Part shown: in pieces, positions 1,680-28,941 of the stretch
Numbering within the stretch: position 1 is the first letter of the stretch
Layout: each line of letters begins with the position of its first letter
Assembly (NCBI GenBank): GCA_003556605.1
Contig: PWQX01000246.1
Coordinates: 1-44,464 of the forward strand
DNA from: Spirochaetaceae bacterium
GTDB lineage: Bacteria > Spirochaetota > Spirochaetia > DSM-27196 > SLAA01
Reading direction: 5' to 3'
Length of the DNA stretch: 44,464 bases
The notes under the pieces: generated by a model
The model's database searches: none
Seen by the model: the letters and a program-made list of their open reading frames with translations, nothing else
Told to the model about the DNA's origin: nothing
Translations under genes and position numbers: made by a program

Positions 1680-2393
1680 TCAGCGGCTTCTGATCAAAAC
1701 GCCGAGCGAGAGCCCGCCCGACCACGACCGCTCCAGGTCGGGGTTGTCGTACCGGCGCAGCGGCGCGCTCAAGCGAAACGCGAGGCGGCGGCGGTGGTCG
1801 GCGGCGAACTCCAGGTAGGGCTCCAGCCCGATAAAAGGCTGAAAGAACAGCAGCCGCGTGTAGCGGTACTGCGAGAAGCGGCCCCCCGCCTCCAGCGCAA
1901 CGCCGCCGGCGGTCTCACCGGCCTCGCCGGAATGGTACAGTAGGCGGTGGGCGGCCGCGCGCAGCCCGAGCTCGGCGCCCCAGAATGCCCGGTAGAGATA
2001 GCCGCCGCGGGTGTCGGACTCGCGCACATAGTGCGCCCCGGCAGTAAAACCAAGCTTCACGCGCCGTTCGAACAGGCGCATACCCAAGCCTAAGCTCAGC
2101 TCATCGCTCGGCTGCGCCTTGAGGTCAAAGTTTTCGGCTCGCGAAAGGTACAGCCCGCTGGTGTATCGCGTAGTGAACACAACCTGCCGCCCGGCGGGCG
2201 CGGGGTCGTCGCCGCCGGGGAGCGGCTCTTGGGCCCGGAGCGCCGCGGGGAGGGCTACGCTGAGCCCAACTGCAAGCAGCACTGCCGCTGTGATGCGAAA
2301 AAGGCGCGCACGAGCGGGGCTGCTGCGCGGCTCTGCCGCCGCGCGATCAATGCCGCGCCTCGCGGCCGGGGTTCGGGCGGAGCCGGTGCTCAT
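1680..2393 (-). CDS. Secreted barrel-like protein, last gene of the SSS/ligase operon
   Basis: Predicted exported protein of 237 residues. The ATG at 2393 overlaps the TGA of the upstream gene as ATGA, so translation is probably coupled. An N-terminal basic and proline/alanine-rich stretch precedes a hydrophobic core (LFRITAAVLLAVGL) and a likely cleavage site after ALRA-QE. The rest alternates aromatic and charged residues in strand-like blocks (for example LGLGMRLFERRVKLGFTAG), consistent with a small outer-membrane barrel, although the C-terminus ends in RSR rather than an aromatic residue. It has no recognised family. Its position suggests a role in the same uptake or modification process as the operon's symporter and enzymes. 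Confidence 0.6.
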   Translation of the reverse strand: MSTGSARTPAARRGIDRAAAEPRSSPARARLFRITAAVLLAVGLSVALPAALRAQEPLPGGDDPAPAGRQVVFTTRYTSGLYLSRAENFDLKAQPSDELSLGLGMRLFERRVKLGFTAGAHYVRESDTRGGYLYRAFWGAELGLRAAAHRLLYHSGEAGETAGGVALEAGGRFSQYRYTRLLFFQPFIGLEPYLEFAADHRRRLAFRLSAPLRRYDNPDLERSWSGGLSLGVLIRSR

Positions 2394-3301
2394 GTGCGGT
2401 AGGCCATGGAGCGGGTCTTCTCGTATCCAAACTTCTCGTCGCGCTTGAGCTCGCCGGGCTCGAAGCTCACGCCGAAGATCTCGCAAGCGTGCTTTTCGAC
2501 CGCCCGGCGGAACTCGTCGATAGCAGGCCTGCTGCCGGTGATAGTCCGGACCGAAGTCATGGGTTCCACGACCTTGTCTTTGATCTCGGGAGATACCCAG
2601 ATCACCTTGAAGAATTCGTCGAGGTTGTAGTCGTCGAGGAAGACCACCGCGTTGATGATCGCGAGGTTCTCTATCTCCGACACCACGATGGTGGCGAGTT
2701 TCTTGCCTTCGTGGCGCAGGCTCCCACGGTGCTTGTACCAGGCCTCGCTAACCCCGAACTCGCCGACCACACGCAGCAGCAAATCGCCCATGCGCTCAAA
2801 GGCCTGCTCAAGTTCGTCGAAGGCAGTCTTCTCTACTACCAGCTGCACGTTAGCGGTGCCTTCGGGCTCAAAGAACACCAAAGTGCGCTCGCCGGTGTAG
2901 ATAACGTGCTCAAGCGCGGGACAGTCGGTTCGGATCTCGTTGATCAGCGCCGCGTTGCTGCTCAAACTGATCAGTGCCCGCGCGCCGGAGTCGTTGAGAA
3001 TATGGGTGATCTCGCGGCCCTTGTACATAGTGTTGAACGGCACTGCGACCGCGCCGAGCTTCTGAATCCCGAAAAAGCTGAATACGAACTCCGGGATGTT
3101 CGGAAGCATGATTGCAACACGGTCGCCGCGCCTGATGCCGAGCCACTCCAGGCCCCCTGCAACCTTGTTGGCGTTCTCGTTGAGCTCGGCGTACGTGAAC
3201 TCGCGGCCCTCAAATAGGATCGCCTTCTTTTTCTTGAACTTCTTGGTGACCTCTTCCAACAGGGTCACCAAGCTGTCGCTTGTCATTGCATTGTTGTTCA
3301 T
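2390..3301 (-). CDS. Chimera: acyl-CoA synthetase N-half joined to lipoate-ligase-like C-half
   Basis: 303 residues. Residues 1-140 are the N-terminal part of an AMP-binding acyl-CoA synthetase (FTYAELNENANKVAGGL, RGDRVAIMLPN, LGAVAVPFN) and stop before the P-loop motif that family requires. From about residue 142 the chain matches the C-terminal two thirds of a lipoate/octanoate protein ligase (LplA-like): a VFFEPEG strand, a DLLLRV helix, EGKKLATI at the place of the catalytic-lysine G-x-K-x-S motif, then SVRTITG and a final helix. The missing halves of both enzymes are in the gene directly upstream. The ATG is preceded by GGGAG inside the end of that gene, with only 6 bp between stop and start. 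Alone it should have neither activity; it may work as a heterodimer with its neighbour, or be a rearrangement relic. Confidence 0.7.
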   Translation of the reverse strand: MNNNAMTSDSLVTLLEEVTKKFKKKKAILFEGREFTYAELNENANKVAGGLEWLGIRRGDRVAIMLPNIPEFVFSFFGIQKLGAVAVPFNTMYKGREITHILNDSGARALISLSSNAALINEIRTDCPALEHVIYTGERTLVFFEPEGTANVQLVVEKTAFDELEQAFERMGDLLLRVVGEFGVSEAWYKHRGSLRHEGKKLATIVVSEIENLAIINAVVFLDDYNLDEFFKVIWVSPEIKDKVVEPMTSVRTITGSRPAIDEFRRAVEKHACEIFGVSFEPGELKRDEKFGYEKTRSMAYRT

Positions 3302-3307
3302 GACCCG

Positions 3308-4717
3308 TTAGCTCCCTTTTTCGATCAAGCGCTCGTCCTTATAGCCTTCCACGAGCTCCTTCTTCAAGACCTTGCCGGTTGCGCTCTTGGGGACGCTTGC
3401 GCACAACTCAACGATCTTTGGAACTTTGTAAGACGACAGGTTTTGCCCGCAGAACTCCAGCACTTCGCGCTCGGTGAGCTCCGCATCGTCCTCGGGCACC
3501 ACAAACGCTTTCACGGCCTCACGCTCACGCTTGTCGGCAACGGCCAGAACCGCGGCGTCTTTGATTTTAGGATGCGTGTACAACAGTTCCTCGATCTCAC
3601 GGGGCGAGATGTTGAATCCGCCGCGAACAATGAGGTCTTTCTTTCGGTCGGTGATGAAGAAGTAGCCGTCCTCGTCTTGGTAGCCGAGGTCGCCGGTGTG
3701 GAGCCAGCCGCCTTGCAGCAACTCCTCGGTTTCATCGGGCAGATTCCAGTATCCCGGGGTCACCACACCGGCGCGGATCACGATCTCACCGATTTCGCCG
3801 CGCGGCAGCTCGTTGCCGTCGTCGTCGAACACTTTCATCTCAACCTGGCTTGCGGGGCGTCCAATGGACCCCGGCTTGTAGCCTTCACCCGACAAATTTA
3901 CGCAGACCGAAGAGGTGGTTTCGGTGAGACCGTAGCCCTCACTGATCTGCGTGTCGAAGGTTTCTTCGAACTCCTTCATGGTGTTGTGCGGCAGCGGTGC
4001 GCCGCCGGAGACCGAGTAGCGCAGTGTTTTGGGGATCAACGACTTGCGCATGCGCACCAGCTGTACCACGTGCATGTACATTGTGGGGATCGCTATCAAG
4101 ATCGTGGCCTTGACCTTGCTGATGTTCTCCAGCAAAGCTTGTGGACTGTACTGCGGGATGAGCGAGAACGCGCAACCGAAGTATATCGACGAGATCAGTC
4201 CGTTCGCGAGCCCGTATACATGGAACAACGGCAGCACGCCGATGAGCGTGTCCTTGTCGGTGAGAGCAAGCAGCTCGCGCACGTTGTCGCGACACTGTAC
4301 GATGAAGTTGCGGTGCGTGATGATCACGCCCTTGGGCTTTCCGGTAGTACCTGAGGTATACAGCAGGACCGCGGGCTCGTCGGGGTCTTGGTCCACCGCC
4401 TTGTACTTGCGCGAGCCTTTCGCCATGAGCTGCGACAGGGTCATTGAGCCGTAGGGCTGCGGAGAGCCGCGACCCCCGCGCGCGGCGACCGCCACGTCGA
4501 TATTGTTTTTGTGCGCCGCCTGTTTGTCTATCTTGACGTCGGCGCCGGCGAGTATACCGCGGCGCTTGACCGCCTGCACCACCATTGAGTTCGGCAATTG
4601 CTCGCCCGAAAGCAAGTACTTCCCGGAGATGCGCCCCTCGACCAGGGCCGAGGGGTAAGCCAGAATGTCGGCGATATCGCCTTGAGGGTTGTAGATTATT
4701 CTCCACATATCAGCCAT
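3308..4717 (-). CDS. Chimera: lipoate-ligase-like N-part joined to acyl-CoA synthetase catalytic part
   Basis: 469 residues. Residues 1-84 (MWRIIYNPQGDIAD, then NSMVVQAVKRR and NNIDVAVAARGGRG) resemble the N-terminal part of LplA-like ligases up to the glycine-rich R-x-GGG strand. From about residue 90 the chain is a complete catalytic section of an acyl-CoA synthetase: A3 motif YTSGTTGKPKG (120-130), SEGYGLTETT, WLHTGDLG, DRKKDLIVRGGFNISPREIE and the terminal PKSATGKVLKK lysine. The first 140 residues of such an enzyme are absent here but are encoded by the next gene. The ATG touches the TAA of the upstream symporter (TAAATG). Together the pair contains about 525 residues of synthetase and about 245 of ligase, the normal size of each. 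Confidence 0.75.
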   Translation of the reverse strand: MADMWRIIYNPQGDIADILAYPSALVEGRISGKYLLSGEQLPNSMVVQAVKRRGILAGADVKIDKQAAHKNNIDVAVAARGGRGSPQPYGSMTLSQLMAKGSRKYKAVDQDPDEPAVLLYTSGTTGKPKGVIITHRNFIVQCRDNVRELLALTDKDTLIGVLPLFHVYGLANGLISSIYFGCAFSLIPQYSPQALLENISKVKATILIAIPTMYMHVVQLVRMRKSLIPKTLRYSVSGGAPLPHNTMKEFEETFDTQISEGYGLTETTSSVCVNLSGEGYKPGSIGRPASQVEMKVFDDDGNELPRGEIGEIVIRAGVVTPGYWNLPDETEELLQGGWLHTGDLGYQDEDGYFFITDRKKDLIVRGGFNISPREIEELLYTHPKIKDAAVLAVADKREREAVKAFVVPEDDAELTEREVLEFCGQNLSSYKVPKIVELCASVPKSATGKVLKKELVEGYKDERLIEKGS

Positions 4718-6253
4718 TTAACTCTCCGAACGCAGAAACTCATCGACTTCGTCAAAGAACTGGGTCTGAATCTCTTCACTGGGTCTTGGAGTCAAGAAGC
4801 TCACCACAATGTATACCACCACGTTGACGGCCAAGGTCGGCACAACCGGGTGCAGATCAAACAGCAATACGCGGCTGCCGCCTGGGGTGATGAGCAGACC
4901 CAACGCTAAGTAAACCACACCAACCGAGGTCGCGACTATCGCAGCCTCGCGGGTGCCGCGCTTCCACAGCAGGCCGCCAACCAACGCCGGTGCCCACTGG
5001 GCGAAGCCGGGTATCGACACATCGGTGAGATACAGCGCCATCAGCCCGGTGTCGAGGATGGACACCGTGAGACTAAGCACCACCACCGCGATCACCGCCC
5101 AGCGTGCCCAGGCGGTGATTTGCCGATCGGAAGCGTCGGGCTTGAAGATGCCCTGCACTACGTCGCGCGCTACGATGATACTTGAGGTCATCAGTTGCAC
5201 CGCTGCGGTAGAAACCGCCGCCGCGATAACACCCATCAGCACGAACACCCCGAACCACCCCGGAAGGGTGCGCGTGATAATAGTCTGCACCACGCGGTCG
5301 GCCTCGATCTCCAGCGTGCTGCCGGCGGCCGCGGCCTGCTGAGCCAATTCAGCGGGCGGAAGGACCGCCGGCGCCACCAGCGAGCCCCATACGAAGGGAA
5401 TAACGTAGAAAAACAGGCCGCCGAACACGAACACCAGCAGCGGGAACCACTTGAACAAGTGCTTGTCGCGCGCGGTCATCGCGCCGATTACGACATGCGG
5501 CCAGCTGAAGGCTAGAAGGCCCACCACGAAAGTCCCGGCAACCAAGACCGGGGCGAACTCACCGTAAGGCCCGGGGGCGCTGAGAAGCGCCGGCTCACTC
5601 TCCATCAGGCGCTGCGCCGCTTCCGATAGGCCGCCGGGCAGCGTGGCTTGCACAATCCAGATGAGCGAACCTAACAGTGCGGTGACATACACCACGCCCA
5701 AGAAGATGTTCACCCAGGCGACGATCCGCATTCCGCCGAGCAGTACCAGCACAACCAGCAACACCACCGTGTAGCCGGCTCCCCACATAGTGGGCAGGCC
5801 GGTAAGCGCCTGGAAGCCGGCGCCGACACCCAAGGGCTGAATACCCACATACGGAACGATGAAGGCCAGAATGCTGATTGCGAGCACCATGCGCAGGCCT
5901 TTAGACTCGTAGCGCTCGGCAAGCGCTTCAACCGGTGAAAGAAAGCGGTTGATCTTGGCGAGCGCCCACAGGCGGGGGCCCAGAAACATATACAGCCCCG
6001 CGAAACCTGCGACCGAGCCCCAGATAAAAAAGACGTAGCCGGGGCCGTGCAGGTACAGCATCCCGGGGAAGCCGTAGAACGTCCAGCTTGAGGAGATCGC
6101 GAATAAGACAAAGAAAAACATCACGACCACGCCGATGGTGCGGCCGGCGAGCATGTAATCCTCGGCGGTTTTGGCCGAGACCTTGTACCCGTACGCGGCA
6201 AGGGCAATAATGATTAAGCCGAAGGCGGTAAGCGCAGTAATCTCAAAAACCAT
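4718..6253 (-). CDS. SSS-family sodium/solute symporter
   Basis: 511-residue integral membrane protein with about 13 hydrophobic helices; TC 2.A.21 type (EDYMLAGRTIGVVVMFF near the N-terminus, WTFYGFPGMLY, SPVEALAERYESKGLR, and a MTSSIIVARDVVQG segment). Members import monocarboxylates, amino acids, pantothenate or other small solutes with sodium. It lies between a small two-helix membrane protein and the chimeric synthetase/ligase genes, so the imported compound is probably an acid that the downstream synthetase activates. The substrate cannot be read from the sequence. Confidence 0.85.
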   Translation of the reverse strand: MVFEITALTAFGLIIIALAAYGYKVSAKTAEDYMLAGRTIGVVVMFFFVLFAISSSWTFYGFPGMLYLHGPGYVFFIWGSVAGFAGLYMFLGPRLWALAKINRFLSPVEALAERYESKGLRMVLAISILAFIVPYVGIQPLGVGAGFQALTGLPTMWGAGYTVVLLVVLVLLGGMRIVAWVNIFLGVVYVTALLGSLIWIVQATLPGGLSEAAQRLMESEPALLSAPGPYGEFAPVLVAGTFVVGLLAFSWPHVVIGAMTARDKHLFKWFPLLVFVFGGLFFYVIPFVWGSLVAPAVLPPAELAQQAAAAGSTLEIEADRVVQTIITRTLPGWFGVFVLMGVIAAAVSTAAVQLMTSSIIVARDVVQGIFKPDASDRQITAWARWAVIAVVVLSLTVSILDTGLMALYLTDVSIPGFAQWAPALVGGLLWKRGTREAAIVATSVGVVYLALGLLITPGGSRVLLFDLHPVVPTLAVNVVVYIVVSFLTPRPSEEIQTQFFDEVDEFLRSES

Positions 6254-6274: not shown

Positions 6275-6508
6275 TCAGCGGTACGGCCAGAAGAAGAAGA
6301 AATACGCAAGATAGGCGATCAGCCACACCACCACGAACAGTGCGCCAACCACTAACGACATCGTCATCCAACCGAACAGCAGAAACGGTTCTTCTCCCGC
6401 TGCGGTCTCAAGCCCACCGGTGACAATAAATGCCATCAGCGCAATAACCGAGAGGAAGAGCACTGCCAAATAGACCCTTCCGGCTGCGTGTCCCATGATT
6501 TCCCGCAT
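6275..6508 (-). CDS. Small two-helix membrane protein, likely symporter partner
   Basis: 77 residues with two hydrophobic helices (about 13-31 and 44-70) and an aromatic C-terminal end (YFFFFWPYR). GAGGAG lies 9 nt before the ATG. It is the first gene of the operon, 21 bp before the SSS symporter. Small proteins of this design (DUF485, DUF4212 and DUF3311-like groups) often accompany SSS permeases and are thought to act with them in the inner membrane; which group this one belongs to is not decided. Confidence 0.65.
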   Translation of the reverse strand: MREIMGHAAGRVYLAVLFLSVIALMAFIVTGGLETAAGEEPFLLFGWMTMSLVVGALFVVVWLIAYLAYFFFFWPYR

Positions 6509-8089: not shown

Positions 8090-8725
8090 ATGTCGTTACG
8101 GAGCGGTGATTCGACCAAAGCACTCATTATTGTGGATCTGCAGAACGACTTCTGTCCCGGAGGAAGTTTGGCAGTGGAGGAAGGCGACCGGATTGCGCAG
8201 GTGATCAACCCCGTGGCGCCGGATTTCGCGGTAGTGGTTGCGACAAAGGACTGGCATCCGGCCGGTCATATCTCGTTCGCCTCCAGCCACCCGGGCAAAA
8301 AGCCGTTTGAGACCGTCGCGGTCTCCTACGGCGAGCAGTTGCTGTGGCCCGTCCATTGCGTGCAGGGAAGCGCGGGTGCGGAGCTGCATCCCAGTCTAGA
8401 TGCGAACCCCATACACCTCATACTGCACAAGGGCACACGGATTGACCTGGACTCGTACTCGGCCTTTTTCGAGAACGACCAGTCTACACCTACCGGGCTC
8501 GACGGGTATCTGCGAGGTCTGGGAGTTTCGCGACTGTACGTCTGCGGGATTGCTACCGACGTATGCGTCTACTCCACGGTGACCGATTCGCTGCGCCTTG
8601 GATACGAGGTCACGGTAATCGAGGATGCGGTGCGCGGCGTCGACCAGCCCGCCGGAAGCGTGCTAAAGGCGCTGGACACGATGCGGACGCACGGTGCGGC
8701 GATGACTCCGTCGTCGGAGCTGTAA
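8090..8725 (+). CDS. pncA: Nicotinamidase
   Basis: 211 residues; hydrolyses nicotinamide to nicotinate and ammonia in NAD salvage. The catalytic triad of the family is visible: Asp16 in IIVDLQNDF, Lys114 in LHKG and Cys159 in GIATDVCV. Metal-binding candidates are Asp54 and His56 in KDWHPAGH and His89 in WPVHC. AAGGAG lies 5 nt before the ATG. One base separates its TAA from the ATG of pncB, so the two genes form a Preiss-Handler salvage operon. Confidence 0.93.
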   Translation: MSLRSGDSTKALIIVDLQNDFCPGGSLAVEEGDRIAQVINPVAPDFAVVVATKDWHPAGHISFASSHPGKKPFETVAVSYGEQLLWPVHCVQGSAGAELHPSLDANPIHLILHKGTRIDLDSYSAFFENDQSTPTGLDGYLRGLGVSRLYVCGIATDVCVYSTVTDSLRLGYEVTVIEDAVRGVDQPAGSVLKALDTMRTHGAAMTPSSEL

Positions 8726-8726
8726 A

Positions 8727-10208
8727 ATGGCCGTATCGCCTCGAGGGCGCGCCCGCGAGCGGCGCTCAGCGTTGTTTACCGACTTGTACGAGCTCACGAT
8801 GGCGCAGGGATACTTCCTGCACGGCATAGATCAGCAGGCAGTGTTCGACATGTTTTTTCGCCGCGAGCCGTTTCGAGGCAGTCTCGCGGTGTTCGCCGGG
8901 CTCGGTGATCTGATAGACCAGCTTGAAGGCTTACGCTTTGAGCCCGAAGACATCGCGTACCTTGAGAGTCTCGGGTATTTCCAGCCGCCGTTCCTGGAGT
9001 ACCTCCGTGAGTTCACCTTCAGCGGCGAGCTGTACGCGATGGACGAGGGCAGCGTGGTGTTCCCGCAAGAACCGCTGCTGCGGGTACATACCAACATGAT
9101 CGAGGCACAGATTATCGAAGGAATGGTGCTTAACACCATCAATTTTCAGACCCTGATCGCGACCAAGGCGGCGCGAGTGAAGACGGCAGCCGGCGACGGT
9201 ACGGTAGTGGAGTTTGGGCTTCGGCGGGCGCAAGGGTGGGACGGAGCGCTGGCGGCGAGCCGGGCCGCCTACATCGGCGGTGCTGCCGCCACTTCAAACA
9301 CCCTCGCAGGCCGCATGTTCGGCATCCCGGTGAGCGGCACAATGGCTCACTCCTGGGTAATGGCGTTTGACAGCGAGCTCGAGGCGTTTGAGAAGTATGC
9401 CGATCTGTATCCGGAGCGCAGCGTGCTGTTGATCGACACCTATGATACGTTGGACAGCGGGTTGCCGAACGCGATTACCGTCGGCAAGCGCCTGCAGGCG
9501 GCCGGACATAGCTTCGGCATCCGCCTTGATAGCGGAGATATCGAGTACCTCAGCTGCAGAGTACGCGAGGGTTTGGATGCCGCGGGGCTGCACGAGGCGA
9601 AGATCGCGGTATCTAACGAGCTGACCGAGGAAATCATCGAACAACTCGTATCGCGCCGGGTTCCGGTCGATCTATGGGGGGTGGGAACCAACTTGGTTAC
9701 GGGGGGAGAAGACGCCTCGCTCACCGGGGTGTACAAACTCGCCGCCAAGCAATACAACAGCGAGCTTCAGCCTACCATGAAGCTGTCGGACAACCCGGCG
9801 AAGACTAGCAATCCCGGTGTGAAGCAAGTCTACCGGTTCTTCGACAGACAAGGTGAACCGATCGCCGACCTGATTGCGTTTGACCACGAACAGATTCCCG
9901 AAAGCGGGTACATGGTGTTCTACCACCCACAAATAGATTCGCGCTGGTTCACGCTGAAATTGCCCCAGTCGTACCGCGCGCAGCTGAGCTGCAAAATGCA
10001 AGCGGGACGCCGTGTGGCGCCTGAGCCGAGCTTACCGGAGATACAGCGGTATGCGGCCGAAGAGCTCGGGCGATTCGACGACACCTACAAGCGCATCATT
10101 AATCCGCATCTATACAAGGTGTCGCTGTCGCAGCGCATGAGAGACACCAAACAGCAGATGATCAGCGGGTTTCTTGAGCGCTATGAGCGGCGCTATACGG
10201 AATCGTGA
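8727..10208 (+). CDS. pncB: Nicotinate phosphoribosyltransferase
   Basis: 493 residues, cytoplasmic; converts nicotinate and PRPP to nicotinate mononucleotide. Family landmarks are the N-terminal FTDLYELTMAQGYF, EFGLRRAQGWDGALAASRAAYIGG (split here as EFGLRRAQ and GWDGALAASRAAYIGG), the SGTMAHSWVMAF segment with its conserved histidine, and IRLDSGDI. It directly follows pncA, and its product enters NAD synthesis. Its last 47 bp overlap the end of the convergent histidine kinase gene. Confidence 0.93.
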   Translation: MAVSPRGRARERRSALFTDLYELTMAQGYFLHGIDQQAVFDMFFRREPFRGSLAVFAGLGDLIDQLEGLRFEPEDIAYLESLGYFQPPFLEYLREFTFSGELYAMDEGSVVFPQEPLLRVHTNMIEAQIIEGMVLNTINFQTLIATKAARVKTAAGDGTVVEFGLRRAQGWDGALAASRAAYIGGAAATSNTLAGRMFGIPVSGTMAHSWVMAFDSELEAFEKYADLYPERSVLLIDTYDTLDSGLPNAITVGKRLQAAGHSFGIRLDSGDIEYLSCRVREGLDAAGLHEAKIAVSNELTEEIIEQLVSRRVPVDLWGVGTNLVTGGEDASLTGVYKLAAKQYNSELQPTMKLSDNPAKTSNPGVKQVYRFFDRQGEPIADLIAFDHEQIPESGYMVFYHPQIDSRWFTLKLPQSYRAQLSCKMQAGRRVAPEPSLPEIQRYAAEELGRFDDTYKRIINPHLYKVSLSQRMRDTKQQMISGFLERYERRYTES

Positions 10209-14574: not shown

Positions 14575-16527
14575 ATGGCTAAAGGAACGAAAACAATAGG
14601 AATTGATCTGGGGACAACCAACTCCTGCGTTGCAGTCATGGAGCACGGTGACCCGGTAGTGATTCAAAATGCGGAAGGCAGCCGCACGACCCCGTCTGTG
14701 GTGGCCTTCACGAATAAGGGCGAGCGTTTGCTCGGACAGCCGGCACGGAACCAGATGGTTACCAACCCGGAGAACACCATTACCTCGATTAAGCGTTTCA
14801 TGGGCCGCCGCTACAACGAGGCAGAGAGCGAAATCTCGATGGTGCCGTATCATGTGGGCAAGAGTGACAACGGCGAGGTGCGCATTAAGGTCGGTGATAA
14901 GCAGTACTCGCCGCCGGAGATCTCGGCTGCAGTTCTGCAGAAGATGAAACAGACGGCCGAGGACTATCTGGGTGAAGAGGTTCATGAGGCGGTCATAACG
15001 GTTCCGGCTTACTTCAACGACTCGCAGCGCCAAGCGACGAAGGACGCCGGGAGGATTGCGGGTCTTGAAGTGAAGCGCATCGTGAATGAGCCCACCGCTG
15101 CTGCTTTGGCGTACGGTTTCGACAAGAAAGCCGGCGAGCAGACCATTGCGGTCTACGACTTGGGTGGCGGTACGTTTGATATCTCGATCCTCGAGCTCGG
15201 CGACAATGTCTTCGAGGTCAAGTCAACCAACGGCGATACTCACTTGGGCGGTGACGACTTTGACCAGCGCATTATCGATTGGCTGGTGCAGAGCTTCAAG
15301 AACGATTACGGCGTAGATCTCGCGAGCGACCGCATGGCGTTGCAGCGGCTGAAGGAAGCGGCCGAGAACGCCAAGAAGGAACTGTCGAGCGCGCAGAGCA
15401 CCGAGATCAATTTGCCGTTCATCACCGCCGACGCGCAGGGGCCGAAGCACCTGCAGTATACGCTCACGCGCGCGAAGTTCGAGCAACTGGTGGATGACCT
15501 GGTGCAGCGCACCGTGCAACCGTGCAGGAACGCGCTGAGCGACGCGGGGCTCAAGCCCGAGGACATTGACGAGATAGTTCTCGTGGGGGGCTCTACCCGC
15601 ATACCGGCGGTTCAACGGGTGGTTACAGAGCTGTTCAAGCGTGACGCGCACAAGGGGGTGAACCCCGACGAGGTTGTTGCGATAGGCGCGGCAATACAAG
15701 CGGGCGTACTGCAGGGTGATGTGAACGACGTATTGCTGCTGGATGTGACACCGCTTTCGCTGGGTATTGAGACGCTCGGCGGCGTGTTCACGAAATTGAT
15801 TGAGCGCAACACCACGATCCCGACACGCAAGAGCCAGATTTTCTCGACCGCTGAGGATAATCAGAGTGCGGTTACGGTGCATGTGCTGCAAGGCGAGCGC
15901 GAAATGGCATCGCAGAACCGTACCTTAGGGCGATTTGAGTTGTCGGGTATTCCGCCGGCGCCGCGCGGTGTGCCGCAGATCGAGGTCAGTTTCGACATCG
16001 ACTCAAACGGCATTGTGCATGTATCGGCCAAGGACCTTGGTACCGGCAAAGAACAGCGTATTCGCATTGAGTCCTCGTCGGGCCTGAATGAGGAAGAGAT
16101 TCAACGCATGGTCCACGAGGCGGAAGATCACGCGGCAGAGGACCAGGAGGCGCGTAAGCGCGCCGAGACCATGAACGAGGCGGACTCGCTGGCGTATAGC
16201 ACCGAGAGGACGCTGCAGGAGCATGGTGATAAGCTTTCGGCCGCTGACCGTGGCGAGATTGAAGGCGCGGTGTCCGAATTGAAAGCCGCAGTTGAGCGCG
16301 GCAATGTTGATGAGGTTGAACGCGCGAGCGAGAAAGTAAAGCGGCACTCGCACAAGCTTGCCGAGCACCTGTACCAGGGCGCGTCCGGCGGCACGGATAG
16401 CGGAAGCGCTGCCGGCGCCGGGGCAGACGGAGGCGGTTACGCCGGTCACAGCGCCCACAGCGGCGGCTCCACTGATTCAGCCGACAGTGTGGAAGACGCT
16501 GAGTACGAGGTGGTCAACGACGACTAA
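14575..16527 (+). CDS. dnaK: Chaperone DnaK (Hsp70)
   Basis: 650 residues; ATP-driven Hsp70 chaperone of the cytoplasm. The ATG at 14575 ([18 protein letters not shown]) is preferred to one six codons upstream because GGAGGAGGG lies just before it. ATPase motifs [26 protein letters not shown]-type phosphate loop and [13 protein letters not shown] are intact. The substrate domain has [16 protein letters not shown], and the tail is Gly/Ala/Ser rich, ending in acidic EYEVVNDD. grpE and dnaJ are not in the window. Pairing with two hsp20 genes makes a holdase-foldase cluster. Two hairpins follow the stop. Confidence 0.95.
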
Positions 16528-27375: not shown

Positions 27376-27448
27376 GCTGGTATTGAAGATTACATTCACA
27401 TAATAATTAACGCAATATCTAGTTTGTATATGAGTGGAGGTCTACGGA

Positions 27449-27930
27449 ATGGCACGGTTCGTTGCCGGCAGCGCCCGACGCGATATCAGCCCGAGCGCGC
27501 CGTTCTCGTGAACTACGCGTGTCACGCGGTTGTGCTCGGGCCCAACTCAGAAATCTCCGCCGATTACCCGGGGGCAATGCAGCGCTTTGTTGAGCAGGCT
27601 CTCGGTTCCGAGGCTACCGTTCTGTTTACCAATGGGGCGGAAGGGGATAGCAATCCAATTATCCATCCCGGATCACGTGATGATGTGGACCTTCTCGGTC
27701 AGCGCTTAGGGGCTGAAGTGCTCAAGGCCGTGGATAATCTGGAACTCCGCGATGTCCGAGTGCTGCGGATGAGTCGTGCTCGGGTTTCGCTGCCGCTGCG
27801 CCGGCGGCTCCTTCCGGCGTTACCATCGTGCTTGTCGGGCTCGCTAACGGCCACATCGGGTATCTCCCCGCCGCTGAAGCTTATGAGGAGGGCGGGTTCG
27901 AAGTAGAGGCCACCGCGCTCGCGCAATTAC
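27449..27930 (+). pseudogene. Neutral ceramidase-like gene, twice deleted and frameshifted
   Basis: From an ATG at 27449 with GGAGG upstream, the frame reads MARFVAGSARRDISPSAPFS and stops. In a second frame the conserved RAVLVNYACHAVVLGP, ISADYPGAM and VLFTNGAEGDSNP of neutral/alkaline ceramidases follow at once, so the roughly 190 residues normally between are missing. A third frame then gives VLVGLANGHIGYLPAAEAYEEGG, the conserved C-terminal part, after another deletion. The end is lost at the junction with the ROK gene. The intact enzyme would hydrolyse N-acyl sphingosine or similar amides. No functional product is expected. Confidence 0.75.
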
Positions 27931-28941
27931 GCGCGTTGCCTCCTGAACCGGGCCGGGAAGCTCCAGCTGTGAGCTCGTCCCAGGGTTCACGCTCTCGGTT
28001 CCGTCGGGTTCGGTGCCTCCGAACCCGACGGAACCCCCGTCCGAAAGCGCCGCTTTGATTCGGTTCCAGGAAACGAGGTCCTCTAGGGTTTCGTTTTCGG
28101 AGATGAACATCCGCCCGATGTCTCCGGCGTCCTCCCGCGACCCTCGATAGAGCTCACCGTCGGTGGACAGCGCACCGCCGACGCCCTCTCCCAGAAACAT
28201 ATAAAAGATGTTCTTGTCACGATACCCGGAAACGTAGCGGATCTCGGCGTGGGCGGCGAGAAATACGTCGTGATCTATCGTCACCGGCTGACCAAAATAC
28301 TCCTTGAGCAACCGGTTCAGCCCTATCTGATGAAGCTCCGGATACGGCGCGTTTTCGATACTGTCGGAAGAATAGCGATACGAGCCTGGTACCGAGACGC
28401 CGATGCCGATAATGTCCTCGTCGCTAATCCCAAGATCTTCCACGTGCCGGCGTATCTCACCGAACATCGCCCGCACGTTCGTTTCCAACGATTGGTCGGG
28501 TAGGAATCGATGTTTTGCCCCAACACCCTCCTGCAGGTCGATCGGAAAAACCTCGTAGCGCGAGTTTCGCGACGACAGATCGATCGCGATTATGCGCTTG
28601 CCGCCGTCTACGAGGCGCACGAGATGTGGTTTGCGTCCGACCGTCGAGCGTTGGTCCAGTGTCTCTTGAACCACACCCTGCGAGGCGAGCTCCTTGAGAA
28701 TGGTCACGAGTGTGCCGAGACTCAGATTACAGCGCCGTGCGAGTTCCGTGCGCGTGGTCTCACCGGCGTTGAGCAGTTCCCGAAACACGGTCAGGCGGTT
28801 CTGTATTTTTACGGTGTTTACGTTAATCGATTTTCGCATCCTCTTGTCAGCGCTGCGCCGAACTGGTGCCGGAATGCCGGAGTCGCTGGTGCGGCCCCGG
28901 CGGTAAGGGGGATCGCGGTCGATCCTCGGTGGCTTCGCCAT
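27844..28941 (-). CDS. ROK-family transcriptional repressor, C-terminally truncated
   Basis: Open frame of 365 residues. A winged-helix DNA-binding part (about 45-100; LTVFRELLNAGETTRTELAR, LGTLVTILKELASQGV) leads to the ROK sugar-kinase-like domain (IGIGVSVPGSYRYSS, VTIDHDVFLAAHAEI, YMFLGEGVGGAL, DAGDIGRMF). Homology ends near residue 301; the last 60 residues are translated from a hairpin and from ceramidase debris on the other strand. About 80-100 residues of the normal domain are missing. The start is uncertain: the ATG at 28941 sits where transcription would begin, and the ATG at 28839 is the likelier start by homology. It may still bind DNA, but sugar response is doubtful. Confidence 0.7.
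   Translation of the reverse strand: MAKPPRIDRDPPYRRGRTSDSGIPAPVRRSADKRMRKSINVNTVKIQNRLTVFRELLNAGETTRTELARRCNLSLGTLVTILKELASQGVVQETLDQRSTVGRKPHLVRLVDGGKRIIAIDLSSRNSRYEVFPIDLQEGVGAKHRFLPDQSLETNVRAMFGEIRRHVEDLGISDEDIIGIGVSVPGSYRYSSDSIENAPYPELHQIGLNRLLKEYFGQPVTIDHDVFLAAHAEIRYVSGYRDKNIFYMFLGEGVGGALSTDGELYRGSREDAGDIGRMFISENETLEDLVSWNRIKAALSDGGSVGFGGTEPDGTESVNPGTSSQLELPGPVQEATRVIARARWPLLRTRPPHKLQRRGDTRCGR
27998..28034. repeat. Perfect 16-bp inverted repeat at the ROK/ceramidase junction
   Basis: GTTCCGTCGGGTTCGG (27998-28013) and CCGAACCCGACGGAAC (28019-28034) pair perfectly with a 5-nt loop. It lies exactly where homology to both convergent genes ends. There is no T-run on either side. It may be a terminator, a REP-like mobile hairpin or a deletion-prone palindrome. 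Confidence 0.8.

Follow-up and report, generated by a model that had tools for sequence, protein, structure and literature searches.

The subject of this work is a four-gene operon on contig PWQX01000246.1 of a Spirochaetaceae bacterium, a stretch of 44,464 nucleotides (nt) that is called the window below and to which all coordinates refer. Running from position 6508 to 2390, four consecutive genes on the minus strand code for a membrane protein of 77 amino acids (aa), a sodium:solute symporter (SSS) and two chimeric proteins, called A and B. A first-pass annotation of this DNA had described A and B as having exchanged halves of an acyl-CoA synthetase and a lipoate ligase, and the two open reading frames (ORFs) that it had drawn are indeed present. 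In the following, LigN and LigC denote the N- and C-terminal parts of the ligase catalytic domain, and SynN and SynC those of the synthetase:

3308..4717, minus strand: chimera A (LigN-SynC), 469 aa, assigned from the ORF, Pfam and motifs
2390..3301, minus strand: chimera B (SynN-LigC), 303 aa, assigned in the same way
4454..4717, minus strand: LigN, N-part of an LplA-fold catalytic domain, residues 1 to ~88 of A (rejoined matches, strand order, Foldseek)
3311..4447, minus strand: SynC, C-part of an ANL acyl-CoA synthetase including AMP-binding_C, residues ~91-469 of A (PF00501 151-384, PF13193 1-76)
2894..3301, minus strand: SynN, N-part of an ANL acyl-CoA synthetase, residues 1 to ~136 of B (PF00501 2-127)
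2393..2893, minus strand: LigC, C-part of an LplA-fold catalytic domain, residues ~137-303 of B (PF21948 72-198)

In the Pfam search, neither whole chain falls into a single family. Chimera A matches positions 151-384 of PF00501 followed by PF13193, which together cover its residues 88-449, while chimera B carries positions 2-127 of PF00501 on residues 16-133 and positions 72-198 of PF21948 (LplA-B_cat) on residues 147-271, the latter with 30-32 bits against a cut-off of 27. When SynN and SynC are rejoined in silico, one unbroken PF00501 match results (2-384 of 384, 327.5 bits). PF13193 is covered over 1-76 of 76 by chimera A, so that complete coverage of the two families is reached only over both chains together and by neither chain alone. 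Rejoining LigN and LigC raises the PF21948 score from 30.0 to 35.0 bits and extends the span from 72-198 to 46-198, and the rejoined ligase of all 12 tested homologues matches PF21948, four of them also PF03099. Judged from these matches, LigN-SynC / SynN-LigC is a true reciprocal swap of the halves of two enzymes, as had been proposed. The fusion breakpoints come out at ~4454/4447 and ~2894/2893, close to the earlier estimates of 4465 and 2880, with shifts of a few bases. The ligase portion amounts to a catalytic domain of ~255 aa alone, lacking an LplB-type C-terminal domain.

The least obvious of the four pieces is LigN. Taken alone, the first ~88 residues of A have no Pfam match, and an hhalign comparison with 29 spirochaete LplA/LipB sequences gave no useful match. 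The predicted order of strands and helices, b-a-b-b-a-b, is however that of LplA, and the best Foldseek match among 350,542 chains of the Protein Data Bank (PDB) is the lipoate ligase LipL1 of P. falciparum, with a non-significant E of 0.92. LipB of M. tuberculosis is also in this list, and both have a TM score of 0.45, compared to at most 0.29 for the other listed hits. On account of the gain in PF21948 upon rejoining, the matches in the homologues, the strand order and the best Foldseek match, LigN is very probably the N-part of the ligase. Two further searches add little to this assignment: a PDB sequence search with the rejoined ligase returned only 6jom (E 0.26) and an unrelated TetR protein, and the 50 listed Foldseek hits of the full A-B read-through are ANL enzymes, the alignment being sequential and hence uninformative on LigN.

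We now turn to the residues expected to be involved in catalysis, whose conservation was assessed over 42 homologues:

4328..4360, minus strand: P-loop YTSGTTGKPKG, residues 120-130 of A, invariant or nearly so
3371..3373, minus strand: K449 of A in PKSATGK, the expected acyl-adenylation lysine of the ANL C-domain, at least 90% conserved
2699..2701, minus strand: K201 of B in GKKLA, aligned with the LplA catalytic lysine (GKKVSG / DRKVSG), invariant

The synthetase motifs YTSGTTGKPKG, EGYGLTE, TGD, ITDRKKD and PKSATGK are invariant or well conserved. With the full profile and these motifs, the synthetase half is an ANL acyl-CoA synthetase of predicted activity; the best NCBIfam model for SynC is of the PRK06187 type (NF004837, 388 bits), which is also among the best for SynN. 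In LigC, K201 aligns to GKKVSG of the lipoate ligase 6jom, G193 and R196 are likewise invariant and H191 is nearly so, in homologues from several phyla. The conserved residues of LigN are R6, D17, G58, G82 and R83, of which G82-R83 are nearly invariant. After the catalytic domain only 32 residues follow in chimera B, compared to about 167 in the LplA of the host itself. The absence of the LplB/C-terminal-domain family rests on this length, as Pfam found no match to it in chimera B nor in the host LplA. LplA-type ligases require the C-terminal domain for lipoyl-AMP synthesis, and LIPT1, which lacks the lipoyl-AMP-making activity and uses lipoyl-AMP, has been termed a half-ligase (PMC7253636). 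With only 32 residues beyond the catalytic domain, the ligase half is therefore expected to be unable to activate its own substrate.

The two chimeras adjoin each other, in the same order and on the same strand, in about 50 fetched loci, so the side-by-side occurrence in other genomes that the first-pass annotation had suggested looking for is seen; wherever the sequence allows a statement, A immediately precedes B in the same orientation. Within the host's order, 32 of 46 genomes carry chimera B at complete or almost complete length, while it was found in none of 15 genomes belonging to other orders in the class; dozens of public contigs contain it as well. The carriers belong to Spirochaetota, Deltaproteobacteria/Thermodesulfobacteriota and Fibrobacterota/Chitinivibrionales, together with one WOR-3 bin, one Kuenenia bin and bins labelled Latescibacterota and Clostridiales. 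A search with a B profile through 247 genomes of one deltaproteobacterial phylum gave eight full-length chimeras with E<1e-138, all other listed matches being to the synthetase N-part only, at E 5e-42 or weaker, and a plasmid search returned ordinary synthetases only. By the profile search the chimera pair is a discrete family. The pairwise distances between carriers on SynN, SynC, LigN and LigC correlate with r of 0.72-0.85, which indicates that all four have moved as one set; LigC has diverged the most among them (51% mean identity). In a tree of the pair, the root of which is not known, the deltaproteobacterial rows L068 and L070 nest inside the spirochaetes and the other deltaproteobacterial rows form a separate clade, a topology consistent with one origin and some transfer. 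These two rows are deltaproteobacterial bins with a spirochaete-type pair, and L070 is cut just upstream of it.

The possibility that the pair is an assembly artefact or a recent pseudogene pair was also considered, as the window is a contig from a draft assembly of 296 contigs and gaps or frameshifts occur inside the pair in a few bins (L078, L083, L084). The interrupted pairs can however be put down to N runs or to single draft contigs, and the same junctions recur, at identities of 43-68%, in many assemblies made independently of one another. Two of these are single-contig genomes, one of 3,782,798 bases. Misassembly at the breakpoints, which the first-pass annotation had named among the findings that would refute it, is ruled out by this conservation and these genomes, and the probability of an artefact of either kind is negligible. 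Some apparent deviations were likewise discarded. The fusion of symporter and chimera A in L067 is a scaffold gap (a run of X), and the single ORF of L078, considered as a natural fusion, reflects internal deletions in a short draft contig. In L071, where the partner of B seemed to be missing, chimera A was located at another place in that bin (L159), truncated by a run of N. The 'chromosome' of this bin, G063, is mis-scaffolded: chimera A (L159) ends in the N run at 0.89 Mb, and its last 118 residues adjoin chimera B at 0.16 Mb (L071).

The first-pass annotation was confined to the two chimeric genes, and its scope has to be widened, since the following two genes belong to the same operon:

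6275..6508, minus strand: small two-helix membrane protein, 77 aa, operon gene 1, an ORF with homologues ahead of the symporter in 35 loci
4718..6253, minus strand: sodium:solute symporter (SSS, PF00474), 511 aa, PF00474 with 88 bits

The TAA of the symporter directly abuts the ATG of chimera A, and the spacer from the TAA of A to the start of B is six bases, with A and B in the same frame. Many relatives show an overlap of a few bases between the two chimeric genes, which suggests coupled translation. An SSS symporter is directly upstream of the pair in 40 loci, and the loci without one are mostly contig ends or scaffold gaps. The small membrane protein, for which no Pfam family matched, stands directly ahead of the symporter in several phyla, including the WOR-3, Fibrobacterota and Kuenenia bins. 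The best NCBIfam matches of the symporter are PutP/PanF, every one below the cut-off. In L068, the usual symporter is replaced by an SSS protein of the MctC/ActP-like monocarboxylate kind (L068:2426-4360), a naturally occurring exchange of transporters that may give a clue to the class of substrate.

To assess the joint arrangement of A and B, an in-frame A-B read-through of 775 residues, with the stop read as Q, was submitted to AlphaFold2 with a 75-row alignment, seven rows of which are read-through pairs. The mean pLDDT is 86.9 and the pTM 0.82, low confidence being confined to the linker and a few loops, and the prediction supports a defined joint arrangement of the two proteins. In this arrangement, SynN of chain B would pack onto SynC of chain A to give one complete AMP-forming acyl-CoA synthetase, and LigN of chain A would pack onto LigC of chain B to give one acyltransferase domain of the LplA/LipB fold. 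From the conservation and this model, we infer that A and B quite probably form an obligate interlocked heterodimer. The earlier idea of a heterodimer that rebuilds both enzymes thus gains a confident joint fold, although for a fused proxy only, and the accompanying statement that nothing is missing holds for the complete synthetase but is doubtful for the ligase, the motif of which is altered and which has no LplB domain.

A ligase half that cannot activate its substrate needs an outside activator, and a synthetase is fused to it. This is the main argument for the following model. A carboxylic acid would be imported by the SSS symporter together with the small membrane protein, and the synthetase would convert it into an acyl-AMP and perhaps also an acyl-CoA. 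The joined ligase domain, which keeps the lysine and would act as a half-ligase like vertebrate LIPT1, could then take the activated acyl group and pass it on, a lysine on an acceptor protein being the most likely target. The best explanation of the whole, an interlocked heterodimer with carboxylate import, activation and acyl transfer, combines a predicted joint fold with a deduced order of steps, and we consider its chances to be evenly balanced. Taken by itself, the acyl-transfer step by the half-ligase could about equally well be right or wrong. That the imported acid is channelled from adenylation straight into an acyltransferase without self-activation, modifying some protein, with the two interlocked enzymes mutually dependent, is slightly more doubtful.

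Several points weigh against this explanation. The AlphaFold2 model is that of an artificial read-through, was not scored as a paired complex and was judged without coordinates; L075 has no symporter upstream; the operon holds no gene for an acceptor protein; and most carriers also have ordinary LplA, LipB, GcvH and BirA. In addition, the LplA motif RRxxGGGxxxH is absent from the ligase half, where the consensus is PRxGRxGA with no histidine, and the ligase cut falls exactly within this altered lipoate-binding motif. With such a Gly-rich loop, the ligase half may be non-catalytic.

The operon would in that case serve carboxylate uptake and activation only, with the split synthetase forming an acyl-CoA and LigN/LigC acting as a non-catalytic clamp or a regulatory sensor. 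The layout of small membrane protein, SSS symporter and synthetase in one operon is found here and resembles acs-yjcH-actP (PMC6498577). The ActP/MctC-like symporter swapped in at L068, the degraded Gly-loop and the divergence of LigC also speak for this alternative. On the other hand, the conservation of K201, G193, R196 and H191 across phyla would be unusual for a mere clamp. Acetyl-CoA synthetase has a tryptophan where the present synthetase has YGLTE, which makes acetate itself an unlikely substrate. Overall, we regard uptake and activation alone as a rather unlikely alternative.

The ordinary lipoylation genes of the carriers indicate that the chimera pair is an addition and not the housekeeping lipoylation route. 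They bear also on a second alternative, namely salvage of lipoate or octanoate, in which the mammalian route of SMVT, a lipoate-activating acyl-CoA synthetase and LIPT1 would be collapsed into one operon. The operon contains each of the three kinds of activity, and SMVT is an SSS-type carrier. SMVT (SLC5A6) transports lipoate (PMC6856110), and lipoyl-AMP is what the half-ligase LIPT1 uses (PMC7253636). Moreover, in three deltaproteobacterial bins (G152, G210, G306) no other LplA/LipB-type gene was found and GcvH-like proteins are present, although these are draft bins that are possibly incomplete. However, LplA and LipB already exist in most carriers, the lipoate-binding loop is altered, and the symporter is above the cut-off of no vitamin-transporter model. 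The lipoate link made by the first-pass annotation is thus weakly supported: this salvage route is improbable, and lipoate as the substrate equally so.

As regards carrier proteins, the small EAMKM proteins of the deltaproteobacterial hosts were rejected as evidence, as they are biotin carriers in anaerobic aromatic/acyl-CoA clusters. A separate observation is that tandem GcvH-like proteins are encoded in deltaproteobacterial gene clusters that also contain cytochromes and ferredoxins (L154:6220-8258, L155:1096-3068, L157:6236-8217, L158:5658-6593 and 15542-16264), one of ~310 aa with a Cys-rich N-part and one of ~240 aa with an N-terminal membrane helix. They keep a lysine at the lipoyl position (DSKT) and are possible membrane-anchored lipoyl carriers.

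Elsewhere in the window, an outer-membrane-like ORF at 1680-2486 on the minus strand, the strand of chimera B, reaches into the 3' end of the latter; the actual start of this ORF is probably downstream of 2390. The neighbourhood of the operon includes, at 8090-10208, genes resembling nicotinamidase and nicotinate phosphoribosyltransferase. A gene like the second of these also occurs close to the pair in L041, so that some synteny is kept. At 27424-28941, a ceramidase-like partial ORF on the plus strand overlaps the end of a ROK-type regulator ORF on the minus strand, the C-terminus of which looks out of frame, a possible frameshift or pseudogene.

Concerning the birth of the pair, the order LigN-SynC then SynN-LigC leaves the native N- and C-termini of both enzymes in place. 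The order fits the entry of a circularised synthetase gene into a ligase gene, as had been suggested earlier, but it fits also a recombination in a Lig-Syn tandem in which a LigC-SynN circle was excised with the second fusion and re-inserted downstream. No intermediate that would decide between the two events was found.

Split enzymes, circular permutations and domain insertions are already known, but a conserved natural pair of unrelated enzymes that have exchanged halves and must co-assemble to exist is not known to us. A non-exhaustive check of the open-access literature gave nothing on a reciprocal synthetase/ligase swap, and the pair seems, as far as this literature goes, to be previously undescribed. 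What is new is the architecture, while the chemistry is that of known families. Should the reading of two interlocked enzymes that channel the acid hold, it would amount to an enzyme architecture of a new kind and possibly to a novel route of protein acylation. The pair points to an unassigned four-gene uptake-and-activation system in several phyla. It also makes testable how a double break of this sort could be survived in a single step, and whether a multi-enzyme complex becomes fixed through the mutual dependence of its parts.

Finally, the pair can be compared with known systems. With E. coli acs-yjcH-actP (PMC6498577) it shares a small membrane protein, an SSS symporter and an AMP-forming acyl-CoA synthetase in one operon, but the E. 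coli synthetase is a single chain with no ligase domain, whereas the present pocket motif is of the fatty/aryl acyl type. The closest NCBIfam relatives of SynC, the long-chain-fatty-acid--CoA ligases of NF004837, differ in that the present chains, each only a part, stay below the curated cut-off (476) and are circularly permuted over two chains. The vertebrate lipoate-activating acyl-CoA synthetase, LIPT1 (PMC7253636) and SMVT (PMC6856110) represent the same three activities by family, which is the only level of the likeness, as they are separate, unswapped lipoate proteins. The archaeal LplA-LplB lipoate ligase and the permuted Lpl(BA) (PMC10332631) also offer a two-chain ligase, a heterodimer with an LplA-fold catalytic domain. 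There, however, the split lies between whole domains, while in the present pair, which has no LplB, the catalytic domain itself is cut in the lipoate-binding loop and its halves are fused to the halves of another enzyme.

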